From NCBI GenBank assembly GCA_004764695.1, contig SMSO01000014.1, positions 2,121,148 to 2,185,147 of the forward strand: DNA of 64,000 nucleotides, read 5' to 3'. The DNA comes from Schizochytrium sp. TIO01. Taxonomy: Eukaryota; Sar; Bigyra; Thraustochytrida; Thraustochytriidae. Position numbers and translations under genes: made by a program. The notes under the pieces are model-generated. The model made no database searches. It saw only the letters and a list, made by a program, of their open reading frames with translations, and was not told where the DNA came from. Of the stretch, positions 11,084 through 63,341 are shown piece by piece (within the stretch, counting starts at the first letter, position 1; each line of letters starts with the position of its first letter).

Positions 11084-13339
11084 TCTTCTTCCAAGCTTTC
11101 TTAAGATGAGCGTGTCGAAGGGTCGTCTATCTTGGCTTCAGTGTGAAAGCAGAGGCAAGAGGAAAGGTGGAGATGAAGAAGGAGCGGCAACAACAGATTA
11201 GGTTTGGTGATTACTGTCGTCTGGCTTCGTCTCAAGGAACACCAGGCGAAGAAGAAAAGCGCAGGAATGGAAATCCCGAAAACTTCCTCCGATACCCCTT
11301 TCTCCGAGAGACAGTCATGGGATATGTATGGTATCTCCACACATTCACAGGGGTAATATATAAGTGTGGGGGTGTTCACAGGAGTGCGGGGAAAACCCAT
11401 CATCGCCTAACTTAAGACCTGTTCTTAAAAAACATGTTTTAGTAACAAGCCGCTACCTCCCTGCCAATCAACAACACAAATTCAAACGAGTGCCCTCTTG
11501 CATAGACTTTTGCAACTTGCCCCCTGTATTATCATGAATTGTGTATGTGCTGCTCAATGCCTGCCTGTCGGAAGGCCTGTTTTGGCTCTCTCTCCATCCA
11601 AAACCTGATCACACTCTTTCAAGAAATAAAAGAGTCAATGGAGAAACACCAACTAAATCAATATACTGCCTCCTATGTAAAAACCTACGGGTAGTAGACA
11701 TTTCCTTTCCTCAGTTCGGTACTCTTTCCACTCTTCCTCTTTCCCCAAAGCTTCTGACGCCTCCTACTACGTACTAAACCTATCATACCATCTAGTTAGT
11801 AGTAACTATCATTCTTCACCTCAATTCTATTCATTTCAAAAGAGTGTCGCACCTTTGTTTTCAATTAAAAAGAACAAGAATTGGTAGACTACCCATGGCC
11901 CTATAGATAGCTAGTAATACCTCTCTAGAGACATAATAGGAACTTCAAAGTCAAAGAAGAAAGTTCATCGTCATTCACGTCTTTCTCTGAGAGACTCAGT
12001 CCTACAGGTTTCTGCTATCAGCGCCTATCTCCCGGGTCATCACAAGAAATCGCGACCAGGCTGTAGACCTCCCTAATGTAAGGCTACCTCACCCTGCTTT
12101 GGCCTTGATTTTTACTCCTCCGCCTTGGTGTGCGAGGAAGCCATCTGCCATGTCTGGCGCCGTCTGCCTCGCCTTCCCTTTCCATGTCTTTTGCTGCCTC
12201 CTCCGTAGCGTCGATTTCAAGCCAAGCAGCTCTTCGGAAGGTCTTCTCCCTCGTCCTCTGCGGCCTCGGCTGCCAAGCGTCGAAGTATTCAAAACTCCAA
12301 TCGATCAGTCAATATCCTCCCAGCAACAAACCTGCCTTCATTTCAGCCCTCCGCTCGCCCTTCGCTTCGTGTCTCTGCTGCGCTGCGCCGGCTGACTTCG
12401 CCTGCTCACCCATTCGTTGGTTTGCGCGACGGCAGCGAACGACTTGGAGCTCAGAGTCGCGGTTCCTGAGGCCTGGTCCCTCAATCTTCTCGTCGACGCC
12501 ATAATGTTGGCTTCCTTGCGCCCTCCACCCCCCGACGGGGACGCTCGAGGGCGTTCGGGAGCCGCCGCTCGCCCCCGTAATCGTCGCCGCTCTTCGAACG
12601 GGCCGACCTCAGCACCGCTTCGCCTTTCTGCCTCGAGTGAGTGTTGATTTGAGCGGAGAGTTGGAATTTGGATTTGGATTTGGATTCGAATTTGAATTTG
12701 AATTTCTCGATCTGCTCGAATTTGAATTTACTCACTTCGTTTTGCAGCTGAAGAACCTTTTTCCTCTTTTTCCCCTCCCTTCTCTCTCCTTCTATGATTC
12801 TGTCTGCGCAACCCATTTTAACTAACTTCAAAGGGTCAGTTACGACTATAGCACCGCCTATAGTGCTTTTGTAGCAGTGACGGTGCCTAATTCTCAGGTT
12901 TTATGATACATTACTACAACTGGTGATTCACTTTGCTTTATTAATTCAGTTCATCCTTTTAGTTGGGTAAAATACTCCAAGTAGAAACATATCATTTTCG
13001 TGCGAAGAGGTAATTAAAAAATAAGAAATTCATGAGTTTAAAATATGCTTCTTTAGCTTAGGTAGATAGTTATCCTAGCTAGTTAGGGACGGAAGAATAG
13101 GTGAGGGAGGTTACAAGTAACGATTTGGAGAAGGTTATCAAATAAGACGTTTCTGGTCCGGAGATTCTTTGCGGTAGGTATTAGTTAAGAAAATAGTGCA
13201 GTGTTTAATAAGGGAAAATGCATGGTGGCACAGAATCGTGATTTGCGAGCGAATCGTTGTGCAGAGACTCCAGAGGACTAACTGCCTGCACGGACGGAAA
13301 CGCAAGCTTTATTGTTCGAGGAAAACTGACGTACTCGAG
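11084..13339. other. 2.2 kb intergenic region
   Basis: Divergent promoter region between the small minus-strand gene and the methyltransferase-Rit1 gene. A more GC- and pyrimidine-rich island at about 12100-12650 has overlapping frames on both strands (the longest, 12130-12504, is 124 codons) with no recognisable product. It could be a spliced small gene or a leader exon. A hexamer-based repeat lies at 12660-12727. Confidence 0.45.
12660..12727. repeat. hexanucleotide repeat (GGATTT / GAATTT variants)
   Basis: About eleven imperfect 6-bp units, shifting from TTTGGA to GAATTT variants. Read on the plus strand it gives a Glu/Phe/Gly string, a by-product of the repeat. Confidence 0.8.
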
Positions 13340-15835
13340 ATGATTGACGAAGACGATGACAGCGGTGTAATTGAGCTGCAAACGGACGGACTCCGGCAGC
13401 TTTTCGAGATGAGTCTGCCTGAGCTCACGCTTGACAAGTGCATCTCGGCGAGGCCTTTAGGCCTGCTGCACAAGAAAGCACCGCTGAGCTCATCTGGTCT
13501 CCAGGATCCATTCGACCAAGATGACGACAATGAAGTTCTTCAGAGCAGCATCGACGATCAGGAGATTGAAAAGGCTACTGAGAAGAATGCAAGTTCTCAA
13601 GACATCGCTGTGAACCCAGGTGAAGACCTTGACCAGGAGAACCCTGAAGAATATAACATTCCAGCGAGTGACGTCAAGTTCAAGCTTTTGTGCGCAGAGA
13701 TGGAGCCTGGGTCTGGTTGGCAGTCTGGCAAATTTGTTTGGCCTGCTGCTGAAGAGCTGTGCAGGTACATTGGCAGTGACTCGTTTGTGGACCAATCGAT
13801 TGCACGCGGAGACCGAATTACTCGAATCCTTGAACTGGGCACGGGTTCTGGTCTTGTGGGCATCTTTCTTGCGCGCTTGCAGGCTCGACTTCACAAGCGT
13901 CGAGGCTATGTAGTACTGACGGATCGTGACCCGTTCCTACTTGATATGATCAAGCGAACGCTCAAAATCAATTCTGATGAAACTCTCCCCGTGGAAACGG
14001 CCGAGCTCTCATGGGGTGCAACCGAGCCGTCTCTTGATGCACTCAAGTCTCGGTTCTCGCGACGTCCCTTTGATCTCATTGTTGCTGCGGATGTGATGTA
14101 CTCGACAGCCGCTGTAAAACTACTTTTCGAGACGATTGATGAGATCTTTCGTCACTCTGAAATGCGAGGTGTACAAACTCAGTTTGTATTATGCTCAAGC
14201 TTTTGTGTGCAGGAGACAACCAACATTGTCATTGAGTGCTGTAAGCGTTATGGTATTGAACGAGAGCTCCTAAAGAACGAAATTCCGCAAAAGGGATGTC
14301 TGCTGGAGCGCTTTGTACGCGCACCAACAGAGTCGTTAGGAGGTCATCAGAACCTTTTACAACAAACATTGAAAAGCCTGCGTCAAGACGAATATGGGCC
14401 CTTTGCCCGTATTCAGTCAATTCATGCTGACGCAGGCTTCGTAGAGCACTTGTGCTCCTCAACCTTCGAGTCTAGATTACCCGTTTTTGCGAACTTGCGA
14501 AATGGTGCATGGTATACTAACTCAGAAGGGTGTTACTTCAAAAGCACGGATGGGCACGTGAACCACCCGACTTTTGCTGCTCGGAGACTGAATATACAAG
14601 TTTTGCAGGCTGCGTGCGCAGCAGCTCGGTCCAAAGTTGCTGTTAGTTTCTTTCCCGAGTTGTACACTGGTGGTGTTGTCCTCGTAGACGCCACTCGACG
14701 CGGCAAACGCTTCCCAGACTCTTTCTCCAGAACAGTTCCGATTTGGTGTTTTGTATTGAACCAGATCGCTGGTCATACAGACTCAGTACTTGATTTACCT
14801 CCATGGGTACCTAAATCTGAGTATAGTGCGCTAGCTTCTCGCTTTGAAGAGTGGAAAGCTCTTGTGCCTGCTCCAGCGTTGGATGTGATTCGTTCCGCCA
14901 TGGCGGAGCTTCCTCCACTACGTCCAGTGTGGGTCTGTTGCGATGGTACCCAAAATTGGCTTGTGGAGGCGCGTGACACAGATGTAACTTTACCTGCTGA
15001 AGATACTGAAGCCCCTTGTGTGCCAATTGTTTGCTTGAGCGCCTCAGTAGCAATCAACGCCGACACTGAGCGAGAGTTCCGGCAATCGTGGCGATACATC
15101 CCTGGCGCAGGAGATGACCATGAAATGTGGGCAAGTGACCTAAATCCTTTAATGTTTTGGCGTTACCGCAAGGAACTAGTGGCTTGTCGAAGTAATGAAG
15201 AGTGCGAGGCTCTCATTGCCCAATTTAGCAAATCTCAAGTAAATACAATGAATGAATCAAATGACTCAACCTGTTGGAGTTCTTTGATTAGCCATTCTCA
15301 TTGTAGATATGCACTATGTGATTTGATGTTTGCAGACGACTCATTCTTCACTCAGCTTGATGCAAGCAAGCATGTACTATTCGACCTTCAGCAAAAAGAA
15401 AGCAAGAATGATAAAGAATGGGAGAAGAAATTGCCGCATAACCAAACTGTAATTCTTCAAGCGTCGCCGAAGGTGTTGAACCAAAGAGATTTTTGGCAAC
15501 GCACTTGCCTTCCACGTGCTTACAAGCTTGCCACTGAAGCTAAAGCTTCTGGCCGTACCCTAGTGCTTCGCACGAACAACTTGAGCCCAGAACGAGCATG
15601 CTTGGCAGTTGCCCTTGCTTGTTTTGGTGTGATGGATGACCCCAAGGCAGATATCAAGGTTGAGGTGAATGCGGCACTCTTTCACGTGACAGAGGCCGCT
15701 GGCACCAGTTTGGCGCAGCCGCCTTCTCGAAAATTACTCAAAAATATTATTGTGTTTCTACACGATTCGCGACGGATAAGGATGCTGAGCGATTCTGAAG
15801 GCAAGACGGGCAGTTGTGCAGCGTCTCGTGAATAA
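13340..15835 (+). CDS. fusion of METTL21-like (family 16) methyltransferase and Rit1-type initiator tRNA ribosyl-phosphate transferase
   Basis: 831 aa from MIDEDDDSG at 13340; the frame is open 48 codons further (to 13196), but that part is Cys/Trp/Arg-rich and leader-like. Residues about 105-345 form a class I SAM-dependent methyltransferase of the METTL21/EEF2KMT type: W..GKFVWPAAEEL, motif I ELGTGSG (165-171), VVLTDRD, and DLIVAADVMYS. Residues about 355-820 match Rit1: NLRNGAWY (385-392), CYFKSTDGH (398-406), ATRRGKRFPDSFSRTVPIWC (about 451-470) and FVLN. Rit1 adds a 2'-O-ribosyl phosphate to A64 of initiator tRNA-Met in fungi and plants, excluding it from elongation. The C-terminal phosphatase-like domain reads LRTNNLSPERACLAVAL where a Cys-containing loop is expected. 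The fusion lets one polypeptide carry two unrelated transferases; the methyltransferase's target is unknown. Confidence 0.85.
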   Translation: MIDEDDDSGVIELQTDGLRQLFEMSLPELTLDKCISARPLGLLHKKAPLSSSGLQDPFDQDDDNEVLQSSIDDQEIEKATEKNASSQDIAVNPGEDLDQENPEEYNIPASDVKFKLLCAEMEPGSGWQSGKFVWPAAEELCRYIGSDSFVDQSIARGDRITRILELGTGSGLVGIFLARLQARLHKRRGYVVLTDRDPFLLDMIKRTLKINSDETLPVETAELSWGATEPSLDALKSRFSRRPFDLIVAADVMYSTAAVKLLFETIDEIFRHSEMRGVQTQFVLCSSFCVQETTNIVIECCKRYGIERELLKNEIPQKGCLLERFVRAPTESLGGHQNLLQQTLKSLRQDEYGPFARIQSIHADAGFVEHLCSSTFESRLPVFANLRNGAWYTNSEGCYFKSTDGHVNHPTFAARRLNIQVLQAACAAARSKVAVSFFPELYTGGVVLVDATRRGKRFPDSFSRTVPIWCFVLNQIAGHTDSVLDLPPWVPKSEYSALASRFEEWKALVPAPALDVIRSAMAELPPLRPVWVCCDGTQNWLVEARDTDVTLPAEDTEAPCVPIVCLSASVAINADTEREFRQSWRYIPGAGDDHEMWASDLNPLMFWRYRKELVACRSNEECEALIAQFSKSQVNTMNESNDSTCWSSLISHSHCRYALCDLMFADDSFFTQLDASKHVLFDLQQKESKNDKEWEKKLPHNQTVILQASPKVLNQRDFWQRTCLPRAYKLATEAKASGRTLVLRTNNLSPERACLAVALACFGVMDDPKADIKVEVNAALFHVTEAAGTSLAQPPSRKLLKNIIVFLHDSRRIRMLSDSEGKTGSCAASRE

Positions 15836-17018
15836 ATTGCTCGCAAACATCGCAAATAACAGCGTCGCATCTAGGACATTGATAATAAGCCTCTACTGCT
15901 GGACCTTTGATGAAGGAGACTGAGCAGGCACTGCACGATGGATCTTTAGAAATCATTGTGTTTGCGCCGGCTTTGAGGGCATCAGCCATTTTCACTTCGC
16001 GAAATCTGGGTACTGGGAAGAGATGATGATAGGACCTTGACAAATGAGCAGAAGCAATTAATTCAAGTTCGCATATTGGACAATCTGTTGGGAGTTCTGA
16101 GACAACCGTGGCGCATCGTGGGCATGCGTATCCCTTGCTTGTGATTTCGTTTATATCGGCAGCAAGGGTTTTCCCTGCTGTCACCGCTTGACCAGACACG
16201 GTTCGTCCGTCACTGGTATCTTGTTCCGAAGTGCACTGTGATGGAAATCCCATTCTTACAAAGGTACATCGCAGGCCATTCTGATTCTCTGCAAGTGCCG
16301 GTGCTGGAGGCACATGGCTCTGAAGCAGTTGCCTAAAATGTTCCTTGCTAACAATAACATCATGACGTCCTCTCGTTTGCTCCGCGAGATATTTTGCCAC
16401 ATATACCTCAGCCGAGAGCCCAATCACAGAGCACCTTACCTTGGCCCTTTCTAATTTTTCAATGGTTTCAAACACATCTCCTTGGTCGCATGTACTTAGT
16501 GAAGACATCAAAACAAGCACCTCACGACTTCCGTGCTGCGGCACACTCTGAAGCGCCGCATGTGCCAGCTCGAGGCCATTTTGAAGCGAAAATTCGCCAC
16601 CTTGTGCAAATAGGGACAATGCCGCCAAGTGTCTCTGCGAGCTTGCGGACATGTCTGTCAGCTTTTGTGCAAGGCCATCTCTAGATATCACAATGCTCAA
16701 GCTACTCAGTGGGTTTTCATCAAAGTAGGACACCACGAAATCTTGCAGCAATTCTGCAGTTACTACGCGTCTCGACGGTCTCAAGTCGCTTTCCTCCATG
16801 GACTGTGACATGTCTACCACCACCACAAGAAAACGAATCATGTTGCGACACAACGTACCCTCTGGGCCGGAAACTCGGCGCGTGCCATTCATGCGTCCTC
16901 CTTCAAGTCCTAAACCTTCGCGACCTTCAGAGGCCACTGCTCGAAGGATACCATGCTCATCTTCTTGAAGAGCTTCCCAGCTCCGCGCAAGGTTAGTTTC
17001 CCAGGCATACCCTGACAT
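15747..17018 (-). CDS. GTF2H2: TFIIH core subunit p44/SSL1
   Basis: 423 aa, close to the usual length. A von Willebrand A domain spans about 60-235, opening with FLVVVVDMSQSM (Asp69, Ser71, Ser73), the family's near-MIDAS motif. Two zinc modules follow: CPRC...CPIC (Cys299, 302, 313, 316) and a C-terminal RING-like C4C4 region (Cys362, 365, 381, 384, 389, 392, 403, 406). The segment HHLFPVPRFREV between them is characteristic of SSL1. In TFIIH, p44 binds and stimulates the XPD helicase for nucleotide excision repair and transcription initiation. The last 89 bp of coding sequence overlap, on the opposite strand, the end of the Rit1 fusion gene. The start is the first ATG of the frame. Confidence 0.93.
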   Translation of the reverse strand: MSGYAWETNLARSWEALQEDEHGILRAVASEGREGLGLEGGRMNGTRRVSGPEGTLCRNMIRFLVVVVDMSQSMEESDLRPSRRVVTAELLQDFVVSYFDENPLSSLSIVISRDGLAQKLTDMSASSQRHLAALSLFAQGGEFSLQNGLELAHAALQSVPQHGSREVLVLMSSLSTCDQGDVFETIEKLERAKVRCSVIGLSAEVYVAKYLAEQTRGRHDVIVSKEHFRQLLQSHVPPAPALAENQNGLRCTFVRMGFPSQCTSEQDTSDGRTVSGQAVTAGKTLAADINEITSKGYACPRCATVVSELPTDCPICELELIASAHLSRSYHHLFPVPRFREVKMADALKAGANTMISKDPSCSACSVSFIKGPAVEAYYQCPRCDAVICDVCEQFIHETLHNCPSCLQNRSASLSVANRVETQ

Positions 17019-60685: not shown

Positions 60686-62096
60686 TTTGTATACAAGTTA
60701 AGTGGCCTTTGCAAGCTGACAGCGATATTCCTGGGCTTGTTCAATTGTATGGAATCAAAACTTTCTGCTTAGCCGATTTGGCTTGAAAATGATCTCGTTT
60801 ACAAGAAACTATTGCAATCCAGATTTGCTATTGTGAATCTACGCCCCAATGGGGACCTCGCAAATCCCTTGCCGTGAGCTGTTTGGGTCAGCAAAATGGG
60901 AAGGCGCTTTCTAAAGCAGCTCCCAGGCCTCTTTGGATTGATCAAATGCAGTTCAAGGGCATAGCCTAGATGCCCAGAGCACTACACTCAGAAACTCAGT
61001 GACAAGGGAACTTCTTCACACGGACATTAATGATGAGCGCACGCTAGTCAAGAGCTTTTCCGTGTAAGCTATCCACTGCCAACCGGCCCTGCGACAACCT
61101 TGAGCTCTACCTAAAAGCTGTTTGGTCGGAGGTTGCGCACGTGCACAATTGAGGCCGAAGAAAAATGCCCCAGAGTGAACTTGTTAGCACACATATAACG
61201 AGTGTTACTGGTATGAGTTATGGCTTGTGTAGAAGCGATTCAGAAGGGTGGATTACAGCATGCACTCAAGCTGAGCGAAAGTGCCACGCGTTACTAGGTC
61301 CTGCTACTAAGCAGGCACTGGCTACAGGAGGAACTCAGATAGTTCCAGGAGAATGTAGCAAGCCAGTCACTAGCAACAGCGATAATGAAACAGTGAGCGA
61401 GGCGAGAATTTGATTGCTGTAGTTATATTCTATTAGTAGTCAGTAAATGAAAACACACCATGTGATTGGGCTGGCACTTGCAGGTGTAACAGGGCACTGA
61501 CCACCAGGGAGTAATGATTGGATAATTGATTGAGTGGGAACAGCAGCGACACTTCATCAATTGGTTGAGATAATTAACCTGGTCCCCATGGTCCTTACTT
61601 CGAATATAATCAACCAATAAGGCCAAAGGATTCAACCAGACAACTCTCTTCGTCCGCAAGCATTACAATGCTTTTTGTAATATACAAGTACCGGCATCAT
61701 GCGAAGCTTGACACCCGCCGACACCACTCTTTTATCTAAAAATGGACATTACGATGGATCCCCAAGAAGCCCACCTGCTACTACACATTTTCCCTCCTCT
61801 ATGGTAGTAGCTGCCTAGGTACCACTACTTCAAAAGAGTGTGTGTAAATCATTCCTAAGGTGCACACCTGTGATTCTTTCCATGCTGATAGAAGTAACTG
61901 CAAGTCTTGCCCCTTCTTCATTTAACCTATTGTCCACAGAAGCAGCACCAAGTTTTCCTCTTTGGTTTTGAGAAAAAATTATTAAGGAGAAAAGGTGGCT
62001 GGCCAATGGTGAATGGTATTGCAAGAAAGCATAAGTTTGTTGCAGCAGAACAAGCAAGACAACAAAAGCTTTGGAACCCAAGAGATACTTCAAAGG
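60686..62096. other. divergent intergenic region
   Basis: Promoter region between the SAM-like gene and Dnmt2. An 82-codon plus-strand frame (61165-61413) has a start but no recognisable product. No repeat or RNA gene is seen. Confidence 0.45.
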
Positions 62097-63341
62097 ATGG
62101 CAACAGTCAGTGATAGTGCGGAGGTTGGAGAAAACCCTGGCGTAATCCAGGATGAAAGCTCCGGGCAAGAGGCCAAAGTGGAGGTGATGGAGTTCTTTGC
62201 TGGAATTGGCGGCATGCGGGTGGCTCTGCAAGCAGCTCTGCGCGACGGTACTCCGGAAAAGCCATCGAGACTCCATGTGACATCAATAGATTCTTCGCAT
62301 GTTGTTAGGGAAGTCTATCAACATAACTACCCTGATGAAACCGTTCGTGCAACCAATGTCGAGGGTATGCGTCTACAGGACCTTGACGGGAAGGCGCAAG
62401 TTTGGACCATGTCCCCTCCGTGTCAACCATTTACAACAACGCAAATGGCACAACAACTTGATCTGGATGACAAGCGAAACCGAGCATTTCTCCGCCTCAT
62501 GAACCTTCTTGAAGAAATGAAAGATCGCCCGAAATGCATCTTCTTTGAGAATGTACGAGGCTTCTTTGGATCGCAAACGCATCTGAAATGGACAGAGACG
62601 CTTGCACGATGTGGTTACGTATTCCAACAGTTCTTGCTCACCCCGATGCAATTCCGGATTCCAAACAATCGTATGCGCTTTTTCATGATTATATCCCAAG
62701 CAAGCATCATGCCCGAAGACGTCTTGGCCGGCTTCTCGCAGGACCCTCAACGCATTGAACGTCTTCTTCCCGAGTGCGAGTGCCAAGATATGAAGCAAGT
62801 TGTCATTAATGGCAATCTTTTAAACTGTTCCCAGCTTCAGCTTCGAGAAGACCAGTCTATTCACCTCCTACATGAAGAGCAGGAGGGGGGTCGGTCTGGG
62901 CCAGCTGGCGTAAATGATGTCGGTGCGTTTATTGAGAAAAACCTTTCATCTGAGAACTCAGAATCTCTGCTTATCCGTGACAATATTTTGCAAAAGAAAT
63001 GGGCTCGAGGTTTAGGCTACACAGGTGTAAAAGATCGCACAACCTTTTGTTTTACATCAGCATATGGAAACACTTACCATCGCGCATCTGGCTCGATTTT
63101 TCACATGGACTGTGAGCACAGAGGCGAACTTGGCGAACCGGAAGACGTCTGTGCTGCTTATTCGGGCAAAGTGCGTAGGTTTTCACCTCGAGAGATGCTC
63201 AACTTTTTCGGTTTTCCAGATTCTTACTCTTTTCCAGAGACGATGCCCAACTCTCAGCGTTTCAAGGTTGTTGGACAGTCTGTAAACGTAGTTGTAGTCC
63301 GTGCCCTGATGCACTCTTATTTGTGTCGTGTCCCTCTATAA
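62097..63341 (+). CDS. TRDMT1: Dnmt2/TRDMT1 tRNA (cytosine-38-C5) methyltransferase
   Basis: 414 aa from MATVSDS at 62097; the frame is open to an ATG at 62013, an alternative start. It has the C5-cytosine methyltransferase motifs in order: I FFAGIGG (33-39), IV PPCQPF with catalytic Cys109, VI ENVRGF (151-156), VIII QFRIPNNRMRFFMI (185-198, usually RxRxF-type), IX/X region RRFSPREMLNFFGFP, and GQSVNVVVV (393-401). The Dnmt2-specific CFT is at 318-320, followed by SAYG. Dnmt2 enzymes methylate C38 of tRNA-Asp and some other tRNAs, protecting them from cleavage; DNA activity is weak. Compared with human TRDMT1 it has a modest N-terminal extension and an insert before CFT. No other DNA methyltransferase is in the window. 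Confidence 0.93.
   Translation: MATVSDSAEVGENPGVIQDESSGQEAKVEVMEFFAGIGGMRVALQAALRDGTPEKPSRLHVTSIDSSHVVREVYQHNYPDETVRATNVEGMRLQDLDGKAQVWTMSPPCQPFTTTQMAQQLDLDDKRNRAFLRLMNLLEEMKDRPKCIFFENVRGFFGSQTHLKWTETLARCGYVFQQFLLTPMQFRIPNNRMRFFMIISQASIMPEDVLAGFSQDPQRIERLLPECECQDMKQVVINGNLLNCSQLQLREDQSIHLLHEEQEGGRSGPAGVNDVGAFIEKNLSSENSESLLIRDNILQKKWARGLGYTGVKDRTTFCFTSAYGNTYHRASGSIFHMDCEHRGELGEPEDVCAAYSGKVRRFSPREMLNFFGFPDSYSFPETMPNSQRFKVVGQSVNVVVVRALMHSYLCRVPL

Follow-up and report, generated by a model that had tools for sequence, protein, structure and literature searches.

The locus analyzed here raises the question of whether a methyltransferase and a Rit1-type tRNA-modifying domain are made as a single polypeptide and, if so, what such a protein would do. 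It lies in a 64,000-nucleotide stretch of DNA, referred to below as the window, with a G+C content of 44.0%.

A reading frame holding a methyltransferase domain and a Rit1 domain

The forward-strand ORF at 13340-15835 begins at the first in-frame ATG (13340) and encodes 831 amino acids plus a stop codon, within a stop-to-stop frame (13178-15835) of 885 codons. An acidic N-terminal extension (residues 1-127; 13340-13720), which has no Pfam match at E≤10, is followed by a family-16 methyltransferase domain (PF10294, Methyltransf_16; residues 128-273; 13721-14158; E 3.8e-20), by what we read as the rest of the methyltransferase fold and a linker (residues 274-347; 14159-14380), by the Rit1 N-terminal domain (PF17184; residues 348-629; 14381-15226; E 6.1e-62) and by a C-terminal region of approximately 200 residues (15227-15832). 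The first-pass annotation had described a single frame with methyltransferase motifs (ELGTGSG, DLIVAADVMYS) and then Rit1 blocks (NLRNGAWY, CYFKSTDGH, TRRGKR..PDSFSRTVPIWC). All of these motifs were found in the protein, and the described order agrees with Pfam, which places PF10294 first and PF17184 second with matches far beyond chance. When the two halves were searched apart, each retained its match (PF10294, E 7.6e-21; PF17184, E 3.1e-62).

Methionines are found at residues 1, 24, 121, 203, 253, 275, 521, and later. There is no in-frame methionine between residues 275 and 521, so a separate start for the Rit1 part is impossible in this frame. Codon statistics derived from 24 other ORFs chosen by length (some of which may be wrong) were applied in blocks of 150 nt and prefer the fusion frame in 20 of 27 blocks. 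The seven that do not favor it are the block at 13178, before the ATG, and those inside the ORF at 13376, 14267, 14465, 15158, 15455, and 15752; the signal is thus weak at and near the domain junction, where block 14267 scores 0.10 versus 0.16 in a reverse frame and block 14465 scores -0.04.

The junction also contains a 66-nt inverted repeat (14374-14439, forward strand), which codes for residues 345-367 and has outer arms of 20 nt that are 85% complementary. A 91-nt stretch around it (14360-14450) reaches -37.2 kcal/mol with a z-score of -5.70, and none of 200 shuffles was equally stable. Across the fusion, windows sliding in steps of 7 have their minimum at 14369 (-42.7). Among 2020 windows from 24 other ORFs, taken in steps of 13, seven reach -37.2 and the minimum is -39.9; the 1518 of these windows with a G+C fraction under 0.53 have a minimum of -35.8. 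The repeat could reflect the way in which the junction originated, act as a pause site, or be a product of chance.

It is highly improbable that the two halves are separate transcripts, or were brought together by an assembly error at the junction, rather than forming one protein: the unusually stable repeat exactly at the junction and the weak codon signal there would fit such a separation, but the stretch from Met275 to Met521 has no in-frame ATG, a splice at the junction would, by our reasoning, still leave the halves joined, and the host contig is 7.46 Mb long. Judged from its sequence, the fusion is most likely a real two-domain protein, composed of a methyltransferase and a Rit1 domain.

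The next gene, on the reverse strand (15747-17018), encodes SSL1/GTF2H2 of TFIIH (Ssl1 domain, E 4.8e-68), and the coding 3' ends of the two convergent genes overlap by 89 bases (15747-15835). Elsewhere in the window, 870-2936 encodes a protein that combines three cyclic-nucleotide-binding stretches with an RGS domain, and one open frame at 62013-63338 contains a C-5 cytosine DNA methylase domain (PF00145, E 7.7e-33). A scan for bacterial promoters and terminators, a method unsuited to a eukaryote, returned nothing. In the genome, matches to PfaA-type synthases over the family cut-off were detected at C4:608161-617209 (neighboring stretches joined); in 14 control genomes, 11 match this family and none is over the cut-off. 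Among eukaryotes, synthases of this type are a mark of thraustochytrids, and the genome is probably that of a thraustochytrid.

The two halves and their relatives

In the methyltransferase half, PF10294 scores 72.8 bits against a curated cut-off of 21. ELGTGSG, corresponding to AdoMet motif I (E-x-G-x-G-x-G), and DVMY, corresponding to the post-II-type D-x-x-Y, are both present, and in these features the half resembles the other members of methyltransferase family 16 (METTL21A-D, EEF2KMT, and others), from which the fusion differs by its C-terminal Rit1 domain. Among PDB sequences the best match is METTL21B (E 8.5e-6), with further matches to the plant protein 7oas and to METTL21D, A, and C; EEF2KMT reached E 0.13 at most. 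The genome contains 29 PF10294 places, 20 of which, including the fusion, became loci, and two of the remaining nine share one 377-aa frame on contig C4. When the fusion and the 19 other loci were compared with three references, METTL21B was best matched by L005 (50.9 bits; fusion, 29.8), METTL21D by L006 (57.9 bits; fusion, 25.7) and 7oas by L007 (48.5 bits; fusion, 27.8). The label METTL21-like, given to this half in the first-pass annotation, therefore holds at the level of family 16 and no further, with METTL21B, METTL21D, and plant 7oas each preferring another gene in this genome. By the criterion of reciprocal best matches, the fusion is not an orthologue of METTL21B or METTL21D. Its nearest paralogue among the 20 loci is L009 (42.1 bits).

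Other family-16 domains of this genome are also joined to a second domain in one frame, as in the fusion. PF10294 occurs with a JmjC domain in a 716-aa frame at L011 (C4:569102-569554 region), and with TPR at L004 and L008. Unlike that of the fusion, the partner domain at these three loci is no tRNA-modifying enzyme.

The PF17184 match in the Rit1 half is nearly full-length (profile positions 2-269 of 271) and scores 209.9 bits against a cut-off of 27. It is the only place for this domain that was found in the genome (64.06 Mb, 37 contigs). Compared with the Rit1 proteins of yeast and plants, which consist of PF17184 and PF04179, the fusion is alike in its almost complete PF17184 domain at 210 bits, but it has a methyltransferase domain in front, and PF04179, the DUSP-like domain, is undetected. 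No match to PF04179 was obtained at E≤1 with the whole fusion protein, or at E≤10 with the last 201 residues, a search in which the HMMER filters drop most weak matches. The last 200 residues or so fit the DUSP-like domain in place and length and may be a diverged copy of it. Because PF04179 is undetected, we refer to a Rit1-domain protein rather than to canonical Rit1. PF04179 was matched at a single place in the genome, L001 on contig C31, which we considered as a second Rit1 piece and rejected, as the protein reads HCFQGKSRS and looks like an ordinary dual-specificity phosphatase.

Comparison of the Rit1 half with PDB sequences gave no convincing match; 2qp2 alone came within E≤1 (E 0.43), and we judged it unrelated. 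Single-sequence AlphaFold models had mean pLDDT values of 41.3 for the methyltransferase part and 41.4 for the Rit1 part, too poor for use, and the low-confidence model of the latter may faintly hint at a strand-loop-helix order near its end.

Relatives of the fusion were sought in viral and prokaryotic collections, a search that says little about eukaryotes. Scans with the Rit1 half gave three pattern hits in viral and 64 in prokaryotic contigs, with no relative among them. A degenerate YFKSTDGH pattern picked out one viral and seven prokaryotic stretches, none of which proved to be related in tblastn comparisons (the Rit1 half reached E 0.12 at best, the methyltransferase half 0.054). The first-pass annotation knew of no described fusion of these two domains, and likewise none was found among the titles and abstract openings listed in searches of an open-licence collection.

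Initiator tRNA genes and position 64

A T-arm pattern, GGATCGAAACC, matched 31 places in the genome, all of which were examined; its backward control matched 29, so most of them would be expected by chance. Seven of the 31 encode tRNA-Met and are interrupted after position 37 by an intron of 30-32 bases. Six are clustered at C6:316398-320249 (L076-L081) and one is located on contig C36 (L105/L119). ARAGORN recognized six of these genes directly and the remaining one when its 5' end was included. Each of the seven shows the classic hallmarks of an initiator: A1:U72, a run of GGG:CCC within the anticodon stem, A54 and A60. They share an unusual D-arm, GCTCAGAGGTAGAGT.

The T-stem of every one of these genes is GGCGG/CCGCC, which gives G50:C64 and C51:G63. 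The target proposed in the first-pass annotation, A64 of the initiator, is thus not borne out by the seven initiator genes found, each recovered with the same T-arm pattern: position 64 is C rather than a purine. In this respect too the system differs from that of yeast and plant Rit1. The Rit1-type marks described are on A64 or G64 (PMC7694415; PMC6269823), and both Kiesewetter 1990 and Glasser 1991 have 'purine' in the title.

Other searches recovered no further initiator gene. Four other patterns and one DNA query found none in the genome, whose initiator genes have the intron after position 37 and the unusual D-arm. One of the four, an anticodon-arm pattern for intronless initiators, gave 10 places, and the eight checked contained no tRNA; the tRNA finder also misses two of the intron-bearing initiator genes, so its negatives are valid for intronless genes only. 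Ten loci from two others of these searches included one tRNA-Gly. In a search with RF00005, 63 of 2627 candidates were scored and seven were examined (one each on C3, C24, C30, C31, and C36, and two on C15), none of which is an initiator. Rfam and tRNA scans of the 64-kb window found nothing. The genome also contains tandem tRNA arrays. One, at C35:886110-888677, has 13 copies 204-209 bases apart that score the same as a tRNA-Lys(CTT) gene on C3; in another, at C30:9381547-9393155, the one copy examined is tRNA-Asn(GTT).

Possible functions of the fusion

We tentatively read the protein as a two-domain enzyme in which the Rit1 part would mark the T-stem ribose of initiator tRNA and the methyltransferase part would methylate a translation protein; both activities, both substrates and any coupling between them are what we infer. 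A possible coupling to methylation of a translation factor had already been raised in the first-pass annotation. The Rit1 part would use PRPP to attach ribose phosphate at the 2'-OH of the T-stem ribose at position 64, here C, and the resulting 2'-O-ribosyl phosphate would block the binding of eEF1A to the initiator. In plants and fungi the Rit1 mark is described as sterically preventing eEF1A from binding (PMC11301382; PMC7694415), whereas in vertebrate initiators the sequence itself blocks eEF1A, without modification (PMC11301382). The methyltransferase part would methylate a lysine. Members of family 16 are described as mostly lysine-specific, the targets of the human 7BS lysine methyltransferases as mostly chaperones, mitochondrial proteins, or translation machinery, and five lysines of eEF1A as methylated by dedicated enzymes (PMC11514484), with METTL21B being the enzyme for eEF1A Lys-165 (PMC8436898). 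The most attractive candidate substrate would be eEF1A, since it is excluded by the Rit1 mark and is the target of several dedicated lysine methyltransferases. The fusion would then set two marks, one on each side of the step that sorts initiator from elongator tRNAs. In its strictest form, this would be a bifunctional initiation-fidelity enzyme: C64 would be marked by the Rit1 part, the eEF1A that the mark excludes would be methylated by the methyltransferase part, and one gene would thereby serve both sides of the sorting. We consider that version a long shot.

Several observations count for the two-domain enzyme: at the sequence level, the Pfam domain matches, the single PF17184 place and the lack of a separating ATG; from the literature, the role of the Rit1 mark as an eEF1A block in plants and fungi and the mostly lysine-specific character of family 16; and the presence of seven initiator genes with the classic hallmarks. 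Against it, all seven of the initiator genes found have C64, a position at which Rit1 substrates are described as having a purine; the DUSP-like domain went undetected; and the fusion is not the best counterpart of METTL21B in this genome. In addition, family-16 domains are numerous here and are joined to other domains too, so the Rit1 partner may be incidental, and the viral and prokaryotic collections yielded no relative that would show conservation of the fusion.

Two of these points bear on a possible but rather unlikely alternative, in which the Rit1 part has ceased to act on position 64 and instead modifies another nucleotide or RNA, or serves the methyltransferase as an inactive tRNA-binding module. 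This would account for G50:C64 in all seven initiator genes found, as opposed to the described marks on A64 or G64, and for the missing PF04179 match. It is less easily reconciled with a PF17184 domain that spans positions 2-269 of its 271-position profile at 210 bits, and the mark is placed on the ribose, so that the base presumably need not matter.

We regard it as unlikely that the Rit1 part acts on initiator tRNA while the methyltransferase has an unrelated target, such as a chaperone, a mitochondrial protein, or another protein, the fusion being an accident of domain shuffling. The 29 PF10294 places in the genome, the joining of family-16 domains to JmjC and TPR at other loci, and the diverse substrates described for the 7BS lysine methyltransferases (PMC11514484) are in keeping with such an accident, but the core motifs are kept in both parts and the joining stretch is short, which would suggest that the fusion has been maintained.

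Fusion partners often share one pathway, and the protein is for that reason a candidate link between protein methylation and the marking of initiator tRNA. The mark itself has been described for plants and fungi (PMC11301382). That a likely stramenopile has a protein with a Rit1 domain alongside C64 initiators would mean either that the mark extends to pyrimidines or that the domain has another target.
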